NCBI RefSeq assembly: GCF_016313185.1 | Contig: NZ_CP066218.1 | Location: 744,001-808,000 of the forward strand | Direction: 5' to 3' | Source: Mycolicibacterium baixiangningiae | GTDB taxonomy: Bacteria; Actinomycetota; Actinomycetes; Mycobacteriales; Mycobacteriaceae | DNA: 64,000 nt | Notes under the pieces: model-generated | What the model was told of the DNA's origin: nothing | Seen by the model: the letters and a program-made list of their open reading frames with translations, nothing else | The model's database searches: none | Shown: positions 8,894 through 37,073 of the stretch, piece after piece | How the letters are laid out: each line of letters begins with the position of its first letter | Position numbering within the stretch: position 1 is the stretch's first letter | Translations under genes and position numbers: made by a program

Positions 8894-10633
<1,740 letters not shown>

Positions 10634-10647
10634 GTCCCTTTTGCGAG

Positions 10648-10680
10648 AGGCCCGGCTTGCTTCGGCGAGCCGGGCCTTTT
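10648..10680 (+). terminator. Rho-independent terminator after groEL2
   Basis: A 13-bp stem (AGGCCCGGCTTGC paired with GCGAGCCGGGCCT, one G-U) is closed by a UUCG tetraloop and followed by TTTT. It lies 14 bp after the groEL2 stop. It is the clearest intrinsic terminator in the window. Confidence 0.93.
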
Positions 10681-10709
10681 CGTATCCGCCTGCGGCCCGC
10701 CGCCTGCGC

Positions 10710-10766
10710 CGAGTGTGCGGTTTCATCCGCGACTCGCAGCGGCGGGAGTATCGATCCGCACACTCG
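10710..10766. repeat. Palindromic repeat, family A, copy 1 (upstream of DUF559 gene 1)
   Basis: Arms CGAGTGTGCGG (10710-10720) and CCGCACACTCG (10756-10766) enclose a 35-bp centre. Its reverse complement matches the copy at 11718-11772 at about 29 of 35 central positions and 9 of 10 arm positions, so the DUF559 gene sits between two inverted copies. Confidence 0.88.
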
Positions 10767-10798
10767 AGGCCTGTGGATGATGCGAGGCCTGTGGATGA
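10766..10798. repeat. Direct repeat with CTGTGGAT cores, 18-bp period
   Basis: GAGGCCTGTGGATGA occurs at 10766-10780 and again at 10784-10798, between the palindrome and the DUF559 gene. The CTGTGGAT cores resemble half of a mycobacterial DnaA box. A pair of CTGTGGAY cores with the same 18-bp spacing lies before the DUF222 gene (58707-58732). Confidence 0.75.
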
Positions 10799-10897
10799 CC
10801 CAGCGCTGAGGAACGCATACCGTCGGATGCCGCTGAGACCGTCGGCCCATGCAGATGATCAACGGCCCGTTTCTGGCCCGAGGCGCTCGACGACGGC

Positions 10898-11719
10898 GTG
10901 CTCACCTTCCGCGAGTTGCGACGGTTCCATCGCGCTGACTTTCCCGGCGTGTGGACGGTTCGCGGTAGCGACCCGCCGACGGATCAACGTGCCGGCGCGG
11001 CGTGGCTCTGGTCGGGCCGCAGAGCCGTGGTCGCGGGACTCTCCGCCTCGGCGTTGCACGGCGCCAAGTGGATCGGGTCCGACATCCCGATAGAACTGAT
11101 CCACACCAATCGGCGTCCCCCGGCCGGCGTCATCGTCCGCACTGAAAGGCTTGCTGCGGAAGAGGTTCAGACCATCGGACAGCTGCCGGTCACGTCCGCC
11201 GCTCGCACCGTCTTCGATCTCGGCCGGCGAATGTCGCTGCGCGACGGTGTGCAACGCATCGACGCGCTCCTGAATGCGACCGATGTCAAGATCCCCGAGG
11301 TCGAGACGGTCATCGCTCGACATCCGGGGGTTCGGGGGCTGCGGCAGCTGCGCGCGACACTCGGCCTCGTCGACGGCGGCGCGGAGTCGCCCTACGAATC
11401 CCTCACGCGCCTTGTCCTCGTGCAGGCCGGCTTTCCGCCCCCGCAGACTCAGATCGAAGTGTTCGACGACTACGGATGGGCCTTCGCACGCATCGACATG
11501 GGCTGGCCGGAGTACCTCGTCGGCGTGGACTTCGAGGGGGCGCACCACTGGACGGACCCCGGACAGCGGTCGGGGGACGTCGTGCGATACGCCCGCCTGT
11601 CGGAGCTCGGATGGATCGACGTCCGGTTGACCAGCGGCATCCTGCACACTCGCACGCAGTGGTTTCTCGACCGTGTCGGGGCAGCGCTCGAGTCCCGTGG
11701 GTGCCCGAAGACGTGGTGA
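10898..11719 (+). CDS. DUF559 (PD-(D/E)XK/Vsr-like) protein 1, probable +1 frameshift near its start
   Basis: 273 aa if begun at GTG 10898. The N-terminal third is winged-helix/AbiEi-antitoxin-like (ELRRFHRADFPGVW ... AAWLWSGRRAVVAGLSASAL). The C-terminal third has a nuclease-like core: E163/E167, D200 (RIDMGW) and D211-F-E213 before GAHHW. In another frame, ATG 10855 reads MINGPFLA and then, after removing one C of the CCC at 10877-10879, joins EALDDGVLTFRE. This matches VATEALESGELTRRDIRRR of the paralogue at 36077. The original gene therefore probably began at 10855 and has a one-base insertion; restart at the GTG may still give a protein. The stop codon overlaps palindrome copy 2. Confidence 0.78.
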   Translation: MLTFRELRRFHRADFPGVWTVRGSDPPTDQRAGAAWLWSGRRAVVAGLSASALHGAKWIGSDIPIELIHTNRRPPAGVIVRTERLAAEEVQTIGQLPVTSAARTVFDLGRRMSLRDGVQRIDALLNATDVKIPEVETVIARHPGVRGLRQLRATLGLVDGGAESPYESLTRLVLVQAGFPPPQTQIEVFDDYGWAFARIDMGWPEYLVGVDFEGAHHWTDPGQRSGDVVRYARLSELGWIDVRLTSGILHTRTQWFLDRVGAALESRGCPKTW

Positions 11720-11772
11720 CTGTGCGGATCGATACGCCGGCGGTGGCGAGTCGCGTATGAAACCGCACAGTC
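11718..11772. repeat. Palindromic repeat, family A, copy 2 (overlaps stop of DUF559 gene 1)
   Basis: Arms GACTGTGCGG (11718-11727) and CCGCACAGTC (11763-11772) enclose a 35-bp centre, 55 bp in all. It is inverted relative to the copy at 10710. The TGA stop of the DUF559 gene (11717-11719) overlaps the first two bases of the arm. Confidence 0.88.
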
Positions 11773-11904
11773 GCGCGGGGAGCGGAGCTGAGCCGGCGCA
11801 GGCTGCCGTCCGCGGACCAGCCTGGCGGGCCGCGCCTCGGTCAGACCAGATGGCCGACGATGGTGCCGTTGCGAATGACGAGATCGGATGTCATACCCGG
11901 AATG

Positions 11905-15898: not shown

Positions 15899-17251
15899 AT
15901 GGGAGCGAGTGGGCATCGACTGACCGGGGTGCGGGCGGCCACGGCGCTGGCCGATCTTGGTTCGGCATCGATCGCCGCCGGCGTGATCGCCCGGCGCCGG
16001 CCCGCTGTGCGGGCGCTGGAGACCGTGCAGGCCGACGCCAGGGCGGTCCGTCGGATGCAGTTGCTCCGAGAGGAATTCGGCGCCGGACCCGTTGAGCTGG
16101 TACTCCCCGGCCGGCGCATGGTGGTCGTGCTCGACCCGACAGACGTGGGCCGGGTGCTCGCCGAAGCGCCCGACCCGTTCCACCCCGCCAACCGTGAGAA
16201 GCGCAAGGCGCTCGAATGGTTCCAGCCGCACGGTGTGCTGATCTCCCAGGGACCCATTCGTCAGCAGCGGCGCGTCCTCAATGACTCGGCGCTGGACTCC
16301 GGCGCCGAGATGCACCGGCTCGCCGGCGCCTTCGCCGACGTGATCACCAGCGAGGCGCGCGAGCTGGTGGACACGGTGACGGTCCGCGGCAGCATGGACG
16401 CCAACCAGTTCATGGCCGCGTGGTGGCGGATCGTGCGCAGAGTGGCCCTCGGCGATCGCGCCCGGGACGACGAGGAGATCACCGATGCGCTCCTGCGACT
16501 GCGCAGGGCCGGTAACTGGTCGTTCCTGTCGCTGCCGCACTACCGCAAACGCGCTAAGTTCCTGGAGCGGCTCTACGACTATGTGGAGGATCCGCAGATC
16601 GGAACGCTGGCCGCCGCGGTGGCAGACGTGCCCACCCGCGGCGCCGTCGACCCGGTGGGCCAGCTGCCGCAGTGGCTGTTCGCGTTCGACGCGGCGGGGA
16701 TGGCGCAGCTGCGGGCGCTGGCCGCGCTGGCCACCCACCCCAACGCGATGGTCAGGGCCATCGAGGATTCGGCTCAGCCCGATCAGCTGCGGTTGCGGCC
16801 GTTCCTGCGGTCATCGATCCTCGAATCGGTGCGGTTGTGGCCGACGACGCCGACGATCCTGCGGGATACGACCGCGGACACGACATGGCGCGACGGTGCG
16901 GTCACCATCGAGAAGGGCGCCGGAGTGATGATCGTGACGCCGGCCTTCCACCGCGACCCGCAGTTGCTGCCGTTCGCGCACGACTTCGTGCCGGACATCT
17001 GGCTCGACGGACGTGCCCGGTCCTATCCGCAGCTGGTGCCGTTCTCGGCGGGTCCGGCCGAATGCCCCGGGCGCAACCTGGTGCTGTTCGCGACGAGCAC
17101 GCTGCTGGCGAACCTGTTGAACGCGTTGGACTTCCGCTTGTCGTCGACGCCGCAGCTGTCACCGGAGGAGCCGCTGCCGGTGACCTTCAACCAGTACGGC
17201 GTGGAATTCACGGTTCAGCCGGTGACGTCGTCGGCAGGGTCGCTGTCGTGA
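15899..17251 (+). CDS. Cytochrome P450
   Basis: 450 aa from ATG 15899 (GGGGAAA about 10 nt upstream). The heme-binding loop PFSAGPAECPGRNLV carries Cys389, and the K-helix ExxR is E309-S-V-R312. The I-helix reads FDAAGMAQ, without the usual acid-threonine pair, so proton delivery may be atypical. A basic N-terminus (RRRPAVRALE) is unusual for a soluble bacterial P450. The overall sequence diverges from the common CYP125/CYP142 sterol types; the substrate is unknown. The 3' end overlaps a convergent frameshifted membrane gene. Redox partners are not encoded nearby. Confidence 0.9.
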   Translation: MGASGHRLTGVRAATALADLGSASIAAGVIARRRPAVRALETVQADARAVRRMQLLREEFGAGPVELVLPGRRMVVVLDPTDVGRVLAEAPDPFHPANREKRKALEWFQPHGVLISQGPIRQQRRVLNDSALDSGAEMHRLAGAFADVITSEARELVDTVTVRGSMDANQFMAAWWRIVRRVALGDRARDDEEITDALLRLRRAGNWSFLSLPHYRKRAKFLERLYDYVEDPQIGTLAAAVADVPTRGAVDPVGQLPQWLFAFDAAGMAQLRALAALATHPNAMVRAIEDSAQPDQLRLRPFLRSSILESVRLWPTTPTILRDTTADTTWRDGAVTIEKGAGVMIVTPAFHRDPQLLPFAHDFVPDIWLDGRARSYPQLVPFSAGPAECPGRNLVLFATSTLLANLLNALDFRLSSTPQLSPEEPLPVTFNQYGVEFTVQPVTSSAGSLS

Positions 17252-27469: not shown

Positions 27470-28023
27470 TGGATGCCGAACGTGAGCTCGTGCGCGACGA
27501 TTCGCCCGGATCTCGTGCACAAGCTCACGTTCGCCCGCCCCGGGCGCTCGTCACCCAGGCCGCGGCGGACCTCCTCACCGGACTGCAGGGGCGTCACGGC
27601 GCGTTGATGTTCCACCAGTCCGGCGGCTGCTGCGACGGGTCGTCGCCGATGTGCTACCCCGACGGGGAGTTCATCGTCGGCGATCGCGACGTCCTGCTGG
27701 CGGTGCTCGACGTCGGAGTCGACGGCGTGCCGGTCTGGATCTCCGGCCCGCAGTTCGACACGTGGAAACACACCCAGCTCGTCATCGACGTGGTTCCCGG
27801 CCGCGGCGGCGGGTTCAGCCTCGAGGCGCCCGAAGGGATGCGGTTCCTCAGCCGAGGGCGCGCCTTCACCGATGGGGAGAACACCGCCCTCGACCAGGAA
27901 CCGCCGCTGACGGGCGCCCGGTACGCCGACGGAGACCGCCCGCCGAAGCGTGCTCCGGTCGTCGCGGTGGCCGAAGACGCGTGCCCGATACCCGGGAGGC
28001 GCGCCGCGCGCGTGCAGGGTTGA
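27469..28023 (+). CDS. DUF779 protein with a palindrome-derived N-terminus
   Basis: 185 aa if begun at ATG 27469, which overlaps the ALDH stop (TGATG). The DUF779 core starts at about residue 22 (RPPRALVTQAAADLL) and includes HQSGGCCDGSSPMC and FDTWKHTQLVIDVV, with likely metal-binding cysteines and histidine. Residues 4-21 are encoded by the palindromic repeat at 27477-27533, and no other start codon lies close to the core. The repeat therefore seems to have inserted at the gene boundary and been kept as an in-frame extension. A C-terminal tail of about 40 residues also exceeds the core. Works with aldehyde dehydrogenases of this type; exact role unknown. Confidence 0.82.
27477..27533. repeat. 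Palindromic repeat at the ALDH/DUF779 junction (family C)
   Basis: Arms CGAACGTGAGCT (27477-27488) and AGCTCACGTTCG (27522-27533) enclose 33 bp. Total length of 57 bp is close to the palindromes at the DUF559 loci, although the sequence differs. It lies wholly inside the predicted DUF779 coding region, just after its start codon. Confidence 0.85.
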
Positions 28024-35075: not shown

Positions 35076-35088
35076 GAGCATCCATCGC

Positions 35089-35146
35089 CGAGCGCACGGT
35101 TGTTGCACGCAAACGTCGAGTAGACGTGACAACAACCGTGCGCTCG
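35089..35146. repeat. Palindromic repeat, family B, copy 1 (between aceA and fadB2)
   Basis: Perfect 17-bp arms CGAGCGCACGGTTGTTG (35089-35105) and its complement (35130-35146) around a 24-bp centre containing ACGCAAACGTCGAG. Same architecture and orientation as copies at 36034 and 37000. As RNA it would form a strong hairpin between aceA and fadB2. Confidence 0.93.
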
Positions 35147-35166
35147 TCGTCTGTTAGGAAGTAGCA

Positions 35167-36027: not shown

Positions 36028-36033
36028 CTATTG

Positions 36034-36097
36034 CGCCGAGCGCACGGTTGTTGTACGCAAACGTCGAGTAGAGCCGTCAACAACCGTGCACTCGGCG
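36034..36097. repeat. Palindromic repeat, family B, copy 2 (contains stop of DUF559 gene 2)
   Basis: 20-bp arms with one mismatch (36034-36053 and 36078-36097) around a 24-bp centre containing ACGCAAACGTCGAG. The last six codons and the stop of the minus-strand DUF559 gene (36077-36097) are read from this repeat. Confidence 0.93.
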
Positions 36098-36940
36098 AGC
36101 CTTCATCACCCGGTCGATGATCTCGGCCCTGCGGTAGCGGAGCTGGGTAGCACTCACACGAACGATCAGCCAACCTCGCGCCGCGAGGAACTCGAGGCGT
36201 TCGATGTCCCCGGCGTAGTCGTCGGGATTGGTGAAGTGCTGTTCGCCGTCGTACTCGACACCGACCCGGATGTCCGGCCAACCCAAGTCGATGCGGCGAA
36301 CGACTCGTCCGCGGTCGTCGTGCACCGGTATCTGTGTCACTGGTCGCGGCAACCCTGACCGCACGAGCAGTAGACGCAGTCGGGTTTCCTGCGGGGACTC
36401 GGCGCCGGCGTCGACCAGTGTCATCGTCCTGCGCAGCCGGCGAATGCCCCTGGCCCCGGAATGACGTGCGGCGACCGCGTCGACGGCCGGGGGTGCCACG
36501 CCGGTCGCGTTGAGCAGTGCGTCGAGGCGGATGACGCCCATCTGTTCGGTGAGTCGGCGCCCGAGGTCGTAAGCCGTTCTGGCGACGGTCGTGCAGCGCA
36601 TGGCGTCGACCACGCACACCTCGTCGTCACGAAAGTTGTTGCAGCGCGCGATCATTCCTCTGGCTGCCGGGCGGCGGGAATGGGCGATCTCCACGGGTGC
36701 ATCCGGCGCAATCCAACGACTGCCGAGCACAGCCGCCGCGCAGTGCCCGGTGAGCGTGGCCCGCCTTCCCGACCAGAGCCAGGCCGCCCGTGCCCGGTCC
36801 GCAGCAGTCAGTTCGGCGCCGTTGGGCACGTAAACATTGCGATAGACCATCGTGTAGCGCCGCCGGATGTCCCGGCGCGTCAGTTCGCCCGACTCGAGCG
36901 CTTCCGTGGCGACGACGAGTGTGGCTCCCACGCCTCTCAT
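36077..36940 (-). CDS. DUF559 (PD-(D/E)XK/Vsr-like) protein 2, flanked by palindromes
   Basis: 287 aa from ATG 36940; a longer frame to 36982 adds unlike residues. The N-terminal winged-helix/AbiEi-like part (VATEALESGELTRRDIRRRY, then RAAWLWSGRRATLTGHCAAAVLG) and C-terminal nuclease-like core (E181/E185, D218 in RIDLGWPD, E229 and D231 in VEYDGEQHF) match the gene at 10898. The VE-Y-D-G signature resembles Vsr/very-short-patch and DUF559 nucleases. Its C-terminal RRVHGC is encoded by palindrome copy 2, and copy 3 lies 59 bp upstream. The target is unknown; involvement in movement or processing of its palindromes is a hypothesis. Confidence 0.85.
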   Translation of the reverse strand: MRGVGATLVVATEALESGELTRRDIRRRYTMVYRNVYVPNGAELTAADRARAAWLWSGRRATLTGHCAAAVLGSRWIAPDAPVEIAHSRRPAARGMIARCNNFRDDEVCVVDAMRCTTVARTAYDLGRRLTEQMGVIRLDALLNATGVAPPAVDAVAARHSGARGIRRLRRTMTLVDAGAESPQETRLRLLLVRSGLPRPVTQIPVHDDRGRVVRRIDLGWPDIRVGVEYDGEQHFTNPDDYAGDIERLEFLAARGWLIVRVSATQLRYRRAEIIDRVMKARRVHGC

Positions 36941-36984
36941 CGTCAGGCCGCCGGGGCGCCCGACCCGACGGCAATTGCTCAACC

Positions 36985-36993: not shown

Positions 36994-36999
36994 CTGCGG

Positions 37000-37057
37000 C
37001 GACTGCACGGTTGTTGTACGCAAACGTCGAGAGGGGGTGTCAACAACCGTGCAGTCG
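37000..37057. repeat. Palindromic repeat, family B, copy 3 (upstream of DUF559 gene 2)
   Basis: Perfect 17-bp arms CGACTGCACGGTTGTTG (37000-37016) and complement (37041-37057) around a 24-bp centre beginning TACGCAAACGTCGAG. It is in the same orientation as copies 1 and 2, so the pair around the gene is direct, unlike the inverted pair of family A. Confidence 0.93.
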
Positions 37058-37073
37058 GCGCAAGCTAGGAACG

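Follow-up and report, generated by a model that had tools for sequence, protein, structure and literature searches.

Nuclease genes with an AbiEi-like module lie between cognate palindromes that also occur as dispersed, gene-less copies in Mycolicibacterium baixiangningiae and its relatives

Genes for proteins with an AbiEi-like N-terminal module and a C-terminal MTES_1575/DUF559-type nuclease domain lie between two copies of a palindrome whose sequence depends on the nuclease. Cognate copies of the palindrome are dispersed elsewhere in the genome, orthologous sites are polymorphic for their presence, and the nuclease gene is under purifying selection. We propose that such a unit is probably a sequence-specific nuclease bracketed by its cognate palindromes and spreading solo copies of them, in a REPIN/RAYT-like manner with an unrelated nuclease. 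A nuclease situated among scattered palindromes, with sister nucleases accompanied by other palindromes, has the appearance of a selfish partnership between nuclease and repeat.

The features below were annotated in the window, the whole 64,000-nucleotide stretch that was analysed.

10710..10765, no strand assigned: family A palindrome, upstream copy, an imperfect hairpin with outer arms CGAGTGTGCGG / CCGCACACTCG
10898..11719, + strand: nuclease gene A, AbiEi-like and MTES_1575/DUF559-type, whose main open frame opens at GTG 10898
11718..11773, no strand assigned: family A palindrome, downstream copy, inverted and overlapping the stop codon of gene A
27472..27533, no strand assigned: family C solo palindrome at a gene 5′ end, missing at the orthologous site in the genomes G014 and G052
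35086..35149, no strand assigned: family B solo palindrome with no nuclease attached
36032..36097, no strand assigned: family B palindrome that takes in the stop codon at the 3′ end of gene B
36077..36982, - strand: nuclease gene B, a paralogue of gene A
36995..37060, no strand assigned: family B palindrome upstream of gene B, the second flanking copy

The two family A copies are 56 nt each, are 86% complementary to each other (inverted) and have a spacing of 952 nt; the TGA stop codon of gene A (11717-11719) is shared with the start of the downstream copy at 11718. The family B copies around gene B (66 nt) match by 86% in direct orientation. A previous inspection of the letters and open reading frames (the sequence-only reading) had described an inverted pair at about 85% framing a nuclease gene, a downstream copy overlapping the stop codon and a paralogue at 36077 with the same layout and another repeat, all of which the present coordinates bear out. 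It had also held that the arms and centres of the two families differ completely, which was too strong; compared by eye, families A and B have an outer CGAG, a subsequent CGGTT and their architecture in common. Single-strand DNA folding, compared with shuffled sequences, gave z = -2.8 and -4.6 for the family A copies and z = -6.6 and -8.3 for the family B copies. An Rfam scan of 10600-11900 returned a single match, far under the gathering score. According to Pfam scans, gene A is neighboured by Cpn60 (groEL2), glyoxalase-like and DinB/MST-like proteins, and gene B by 3HCDH and PPK2 proteins. The family C solo palindrome at 27472-27533 reads in frame with the gene 5′ end at which it lies and seems to extend the N-terminus of the product.

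The only Pfam match of the gene A protein was to MTES_1575, at 20.2 bits (cut-off 38.2), while the gene B protein matched MTES_1575 at 33.6 bits (cut-off 38.2) and DUF559 at 20.0 bits (cut-off 20.6), and another paralogue, L005, matched DUF559 at 23.8 bits, over the cut-off of 20.6. Gene A had been called a DUF559 gene in the sequence-only reading; this stands by way of its 38-47% protein identity to nine paralogues, some of which match DUF559, and does not stand as a direct Pfam match. Across the eight proteins scanned with Pfam at E values up to 1, we found MTES_1575, DUF559, AbiEi_1 (slightly under the cut-off, in L086 only) and a weak DprA_WH, and no Y1 transposase. PADLOC models of AbiEi matched the N-terminal part (four proteins scanned), with best E values of 8e-11 for gene A and 8.6e-7 for gene B. 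The C-terminal MTES_1575/DUF559 domain is presumably of the PD-(D/E)XK type. In L081, a relative 82% identical to the gene A protein whose AlphaFold model has a mean pLDDT of 93, the residues E184, D217 and H234 (L081 numbering) are invariant across 39 sequences, and we take them to be the putative catalytic residues. A sequence-profile search of solved structures yielded TALE proteins and a few others, which we regarded as chance matches. The DUF559 entry of Pfam is still listed as of unknown function.

Between gene A and L081, dN was 0.10 and dS 0.86, and dN/dS was about 0.09-0.21 across the 11 pairs compared; with dN so far under dS, the protein is generally under purifying selection. In the window, about 18 N-terminal codons known from the relatives (10849-10898) do not share the frame in which the rest of the gene is read, and this copy of gene A may be N-terminally disrupted. 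Relatives of gene A were found in 22 of 246 genomes across the phylum (E <= 1e-15), five genomes of the genus had from 6 to at least 9 scored matches each, and the M. baixiangningiae genome has paralogues at 12 places (E <= 0.001).

A matching repeat pair flanks 10 of these 12 paralogues, nine of them by BLAST and the tenth (L005) by alignment. L006 and L010 (families F and J) each carry a single flanking palindrome with no second copy, and families G, H and M are palindromic only imperfectly. The locus L011 (G000 5066531-5069770) holds a nuclease remnant, an 80-aa match in a 133-aa frame, that still lies between a pair of family K palindromes.

To quantify the association, we took 80 named mycobacterial loci (the best of at least 560 confirmed candidates) and compared the upstream flank of each with its downstream flank. 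The two flanks matched at >=40 bits in 48 of the 80 loci (32 fell under this value), at >=35 bits in 54 and at >=30 bits in 68. Among 6320 cross-locus pairs, the corresponding numbers were 269 (4.3%), 5.9% and 591 (9.4%); some cross-locus matches are expected because related nucleases have palindromes in common. Three same-locus controls gave no match at >=40 bits (0/73, 0/67 and 0/67, versus 44/73 for the unit flanks), 1, 0 and 0 matches at >=35 bits, and 2, 3 and 3 at >=30 bits. These counts support the modular nuclease-palindrome unit that the sequence-only reading had inferred, and at the levels of >=35 and >=30 bits a flanking element common to both sides is present at most of the named loci rather than missing from them. 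The flanking copies have a median length of about 59 nt. At the 54 loci with matches of >=35 bits, they are direct in 33 cases and inverted in 21; counted from the end of the stop codon, the downstream copy has a median start of -1 (at or before that end in 31 of the 54), and the median distance from the end of the upstream copy to the aligned start is 111 nt (81-155 for the 10-90% range).

The layout extends beyond the genus. From the draw of 246 genomes across the phylum, we used 28 of the 30 fetched loci, dropping two of M. baixiangningiae itself; 20 of the 28 lie outside the genus. Eleven of the 20 had a flank match of >=40 bits, compared with 0 of 756 cross pairs, and nine fell under it. 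For seven of the 11, one copy or both tested as palindromic at p <= 0.01, and the matching flanks of L260, L265, L266 and L270 were not palindromic by this test. A phage collection contained no match to the nuclease. In a plasmid collection, three records carried a relative, and the two examined, from Tsukamurella tyrosinosolvens and an Arthrobacter sp., both have the palindrome pair; judged from gene content and size, these two records may be chromosomal. Matching palindromes elsewhere in the plasmid collection came only from the respective strain itself (20 places spread over 8 records, and 10 over 2 records; one palindrome may be counted on both strands).

Palindrome similarity tracks nuclease identity. 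Upstream copies were paired with downstream copies from other loci, using 90 loci with L011 and L012 left out. In the nuclease identity bins below 55%, palindromes matched at >=35 bits in 0%, 0.2%, 0.9% and 0.4% of the pairs; the proportion rose to 5.7% at 55-60% identity, 30% at 60-70% and 80% above 70%. That the repeats are nuclease-specific, as the sequence-only reading had suggested from two loci, is supported by this rise. Common descent of whole units, in which the flanks are co-inherited with the gene, contributes part of the result.

The palindromes also occur without the gene, which the sequence-only reading had missed; the likely meaning accordingly shifts from a flanked gene to a nuclease with a dispersed repeat population. 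With one palindrome per family as the query, further copies with no adjoining nuclease match were found in the M. baixiangningiae genome for 11 of the 12 families (all but F), including at least one dispersed copy each for families H, I and M. The copies number from at least 1 to about 10 per family; because only part of the candidates was scored (40 of 138 in the genome-wide search, up to 6 per genome elsewhere), the own-genome and cross-genome copy numbers are minimum values. Relative to heuristically called genes, 25 of 32 solo copies are found no more than 20 bp from a gene 3′ end, and the spacers of the 32 are convergent in 12 cases, co-directional in 18, divergent in 1 and unclear in 1. 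The solo copies near gene 3′ ends resemble in position the GTAG and CGTC REPs, as these are described in a part of PMC3733652.

Several arrangements of solo palindromes were seen besides. One gene is followed by two adjacent palindromes, of families D and A, at G000 608656-608800 (L019). Three family A palindromes at G093:C4:59154, 59297 and 59440 form a tandem array with 143 bp spacing, like REPIN clusters. At the family C solo site L233 in G095, three tandem copies of a sequence of about 32 nt directly precede the palindrome. In G095:C23, at about 15997-16496 (L224), a sequence that by eye resembles a family K palindrome lies at the spacer orthologous to that of the family A solo at G000 4233416; one intergenic site with an apparent K palindrome in G095 and an A palindrome in G000 suggests that different families may use the same spacer.

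The ends of the copies were inspected for sequence tags and duplications. GTAG was present near the end of 3 of 55 own copies (background 5.3%) and CGTC near the end of 5 of 55 (background 22%). CGA was present near the end of 48 of 55 own copies (background 60%) and at 40 of 76 ends of the named loci versus 22%. With element ends set by a crude hairpin search, target-site repeats of >=4 nt occurred at 4 copies versus 3.9 expected from re-paired flanks (51 of the 55 copies scored), and this lack of a duplication signal leaves no direct mark of an insertion chemistry. ACGT at 5807882 and GTCACCC at 4819494 were suggestive singly and were dropped since the pooled test was null.

Dispersed palindromes and nucleases were then compared for co-occurrence in 148 genomes, after removal of palindromes within 2.5 kb of a nuclease. 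Dispersed family A palindromes were found in 24 of the 32 genomes with nuclease A versus 13 of the 116 without it, by raw counts that ignore shared ancestry. For family B, under the same disregard of ancestry, the counts were 18/42 with the nuclease versus 12/106 without it at E <= 1e-84, 15/16 versus 15/132 at a nuclease identity of >=60%, and 14/14 versus 16/134 at >=63%, these two identity cut-offs having been picked after the data were seen. No dispersed copy was found in 8 of the 32 genomes with nuclease A and in 24 of the 42 with nuclease B by the E cut-off. Conversely, palindromes occur without a detected cognate nuclease, for family A in G068 (at least 6), G008 (at least 4) and G098 (at least 4), and for family B in G039 (at least 6), G081 (at least 6) and G107 (at least 5).

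To assess whether the palindromes come and go, we compared orthologous sites; 18 of 29 queried solo sites were aligned with relatives. Twelve of the 18, designated by family and genome position, were empty in one or more relatives whose flanking sequence aligned on either side: A4835037, A2764591, C771472 (window 27472), D822744, E5807882, E2352587, E1312952, E5351878, E4606228, G4819494, J5830832 and K1922048. At J5830832, K1922048, E5351878 and D822744 the difference is ragged, with more or less than the palindrome missing or unrelated bases left. B779086 (window 35086; partial in G052) and B5258723 were filled in the relatives compared, and B4852277 was filled in G095 and mostly missing in G014. 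The state of A4233416 and A2232967 is uncertain, and the alignment for D1070993 was uninformative. For A4233416 and K1922048 the assessment draws on part of the alignment.

Whole units vary likewise. The unit C site, where M. baixiangningiae has the full unit, has neither gene nor palindrome in G014 and G019 (both taken from match coordinates) and a single C palindrome without the gene in G052. Such empty and solo states, which answer the concern of the sequence-only reading with empty sites that lack repeats at the boundaries, imply that palindrome and gene come and go together or stepwise. At the groEL2 site of unit A, G019 has a solo A palindrome without the gene, and G024, G136, G093, G043, G013, G009, G070 and G071 have the full unit. 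The protein-level comparison behind this used the groEL2, VOC, DinB12330, L001, L004, L005, L011 and L012 entries and left out L002, L003 and L006-L010. The gene and both palindromes of unit H are absent from G095, again by match coordinates. G052 has no gene and hardly any palindrome sequence at the site of unit I, where the last 13-16 nt or so of the downstream palindrome are left, a remnant that suggests deletion. Alignments were forced into the gene region in the comparisons with G019 for C, G014 for I, G095 for H and D, and G019 for G.

In layout and population behaviour, the nearest known system is the REPtron or REPIN-RAYT. In both, an enzyme gene lies between imperfect palindromes, different enzymes go with different repeat families and gene-less copies lie near gene 3′ ends, as far as the relevant parts of PMC3733652 and PMC3116915 describe the known system. 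The present units differ in having an AbiEi-like module with an MTES_1575/DUF559-type domain and no Y1/HUH match, in the small number of copies (at least 1 to about 10 per family), in the absence of a GTAG tag, and in their distribution, having been searched for and found in Actinomycetota only. Lacking both the Y1/HUH transposase and the GTAG tag, they are therefore no members of REPIN-RAYT. AbiE type IV toxin-antitoxin systems resemble the units in that the N-terminal part matches AbiEi models and AbiEi binds paired inverted repeats; they differ in that the proteins described here have a C-terminal nuclease domain and the palindromes flank the gene at either end and recur at other genomic places. 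No AbiEii (DUF1814) toxin gene was present among the five proteins neighbouring genes A and B in the Pfam scan, and an AbiE toxin-antitoxin operon was ruled out for lack of a toxin gene next to A or B. TIRtrons and MITEs likewise combine a gene having terminal repeats with gene-less copies; the repeats here, in contrast, are hairpins that are direct at 33 and inverted at 21 of 54 loci, with no transposase domain and no target-site duplication signal. The null duplication test also speaks against a DDE element that duplicates its target. An identity as integron attC sites was set aside on general grounds.

For the preferred reading, a sequence-specific nuclease that spreads its own palindromes, we envisage the following mechanism. 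The unit would consist of the nuclease gene and two copies of its cognate palindrome of 55-65 nt. In many of the palindromes, a centre of 15-24 nt separates two arms of about 20 bp, and AbiEi and its mycobacterial homologue Rv2827c bind paired 23 bp inverted repeats that are 3 or 13 bp apart, according to a part of PMC7319586. The arms fall into the size class of AbiEi sites, which is why we propose recognition by the N-terminal module combined with cutting by the nuclease: the AbiEi-like module would bind the arms of about 20 bp and the MTES_1575/DUF559 domain would cut within the arms or next to them. New solo palindromes, mainly next to stop codons, could then arise at the cut through repair by the host or through copying. 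The gene, single-copy per family, might act in trans as a resident helper, in the role ascribed to RAYTs with respect to REPINs. We infer, too, that dispersal of the palindromes is caused by the nuclease and not by some other factor.

The palindromes could instead be operators, through whose upstream copy the AbiEi-like module represses its own gene while the dispersed copies are regulated sites or decoys, with no nuclease-driven mobility. The PADLOC match of the gene A N-terminal part to AbiEi (8e-11) and the median distance of 111 nt between the end of the upstream copy and the aligned start (54 loci) are in keeping with this, as is the autoregulation of AbiEi and Rv2827c through paired 23 bp inverted repeats in their own promoters (part of PMC7319586). 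We nevertheless consider it unlikely: no operator is needed at the stop codon, where the second copy lies (starting at or before the end of the codon in 31 of 54 loci), 25 of 32 solos are within 20 bp of a gene 3′ end and only 1 of 32 is in a divergent spacer, and orthologous sites are polymorphic for the presence of the palindrome. Another route, host recombination or an unrelated transposase, might spread the palindromes, with the nuclease as a domesticated partner engaged in processing, guarding or using them, for instance to distinguish self from foreign DNA. Genomes rich in copies in which no cognate nuclease was detected would fit such a division of labour, purifying selection on the nuclease gene would too, and a part of the REPIN paper (PMC3116915) raises addiction or a host role for RAYTs. 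Against these points, palindrome identity follows nuclease identity, and a repeat pair that brackets the nuclease gene in distant genera sits less easily with movement by another enzyme; we regard this route as fairly unlikely.

Homing or cassette exchange, in which unit-less alleles are cut, the unit is copied in and solos are recombination remnants like solo LTRs, would account for the unit C site, which is empty, solo or full in different species and whose two copies are direct, and for the remnant of about 13-16 nt at the unit I site in G052, which resembles a deletion leftover. Homing endonucleases of the EDxHD and PD-(D/E)XK types exist, are likewise encoded by small and potentially selfish nuclease genes, and may be related to the MTES_1575/DUF559-type domain. 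The units described here, however, are not bound to one conserved target and have a dispersed repeat family alongside. For several families the solos outnumber the units and occupy many unrelated sites, where homing would concern one allelic site, and the copies are inverted at 21 of 54 loci, which simple deletion does not reduce to a solo; we thus judge homing quite unlikely. The groEL2 gene adjoins 5 of the 20 loci L081-L100, and this fraction, together with the solos at many unrelated sites, led us to reject an endonuclease homing to a single site. Finally, chance palindromes are plentiful in GC-rich genomes and downstream hairpins could terminate transcription, so that coincidence, ordinary terminators or REP-like noise have to be considered; with the same-locus and cross-locus controls as they are at the present sample size and a palindrome sequence that depends on the nuclease, this is extremely improbable.

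No description of the nuclease-palindrome association was found in the open-access literature searched (PMC, with bioRxiv and subscription journals outside its scope). The chances appear to us even that the units constitute a separate class of selfish, palindrome-propagating systems across Actinomycetota, in which an AbiEi-type module joined to a PD-(D/E)XK nuclease recognises its own palindrome and copies it into gene ends by a chemistry other than HUH or DDE, in fast-changing pairs and with up to a dozen families per genome. If the reading of a nuclease that spreads its cognate palindromes is true, DUF559-type genes would gain a natural substrate and a testable role, a class of mycobacterial intergenic hairpins would be explained, and REPIN-like repeat populations would have arisen with an enzyme unrelated to RAYTs. 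The parallel pairs of nuclease and palindrome would then offer a natural set from which to learn how the AbiEi-type module reads DNA.
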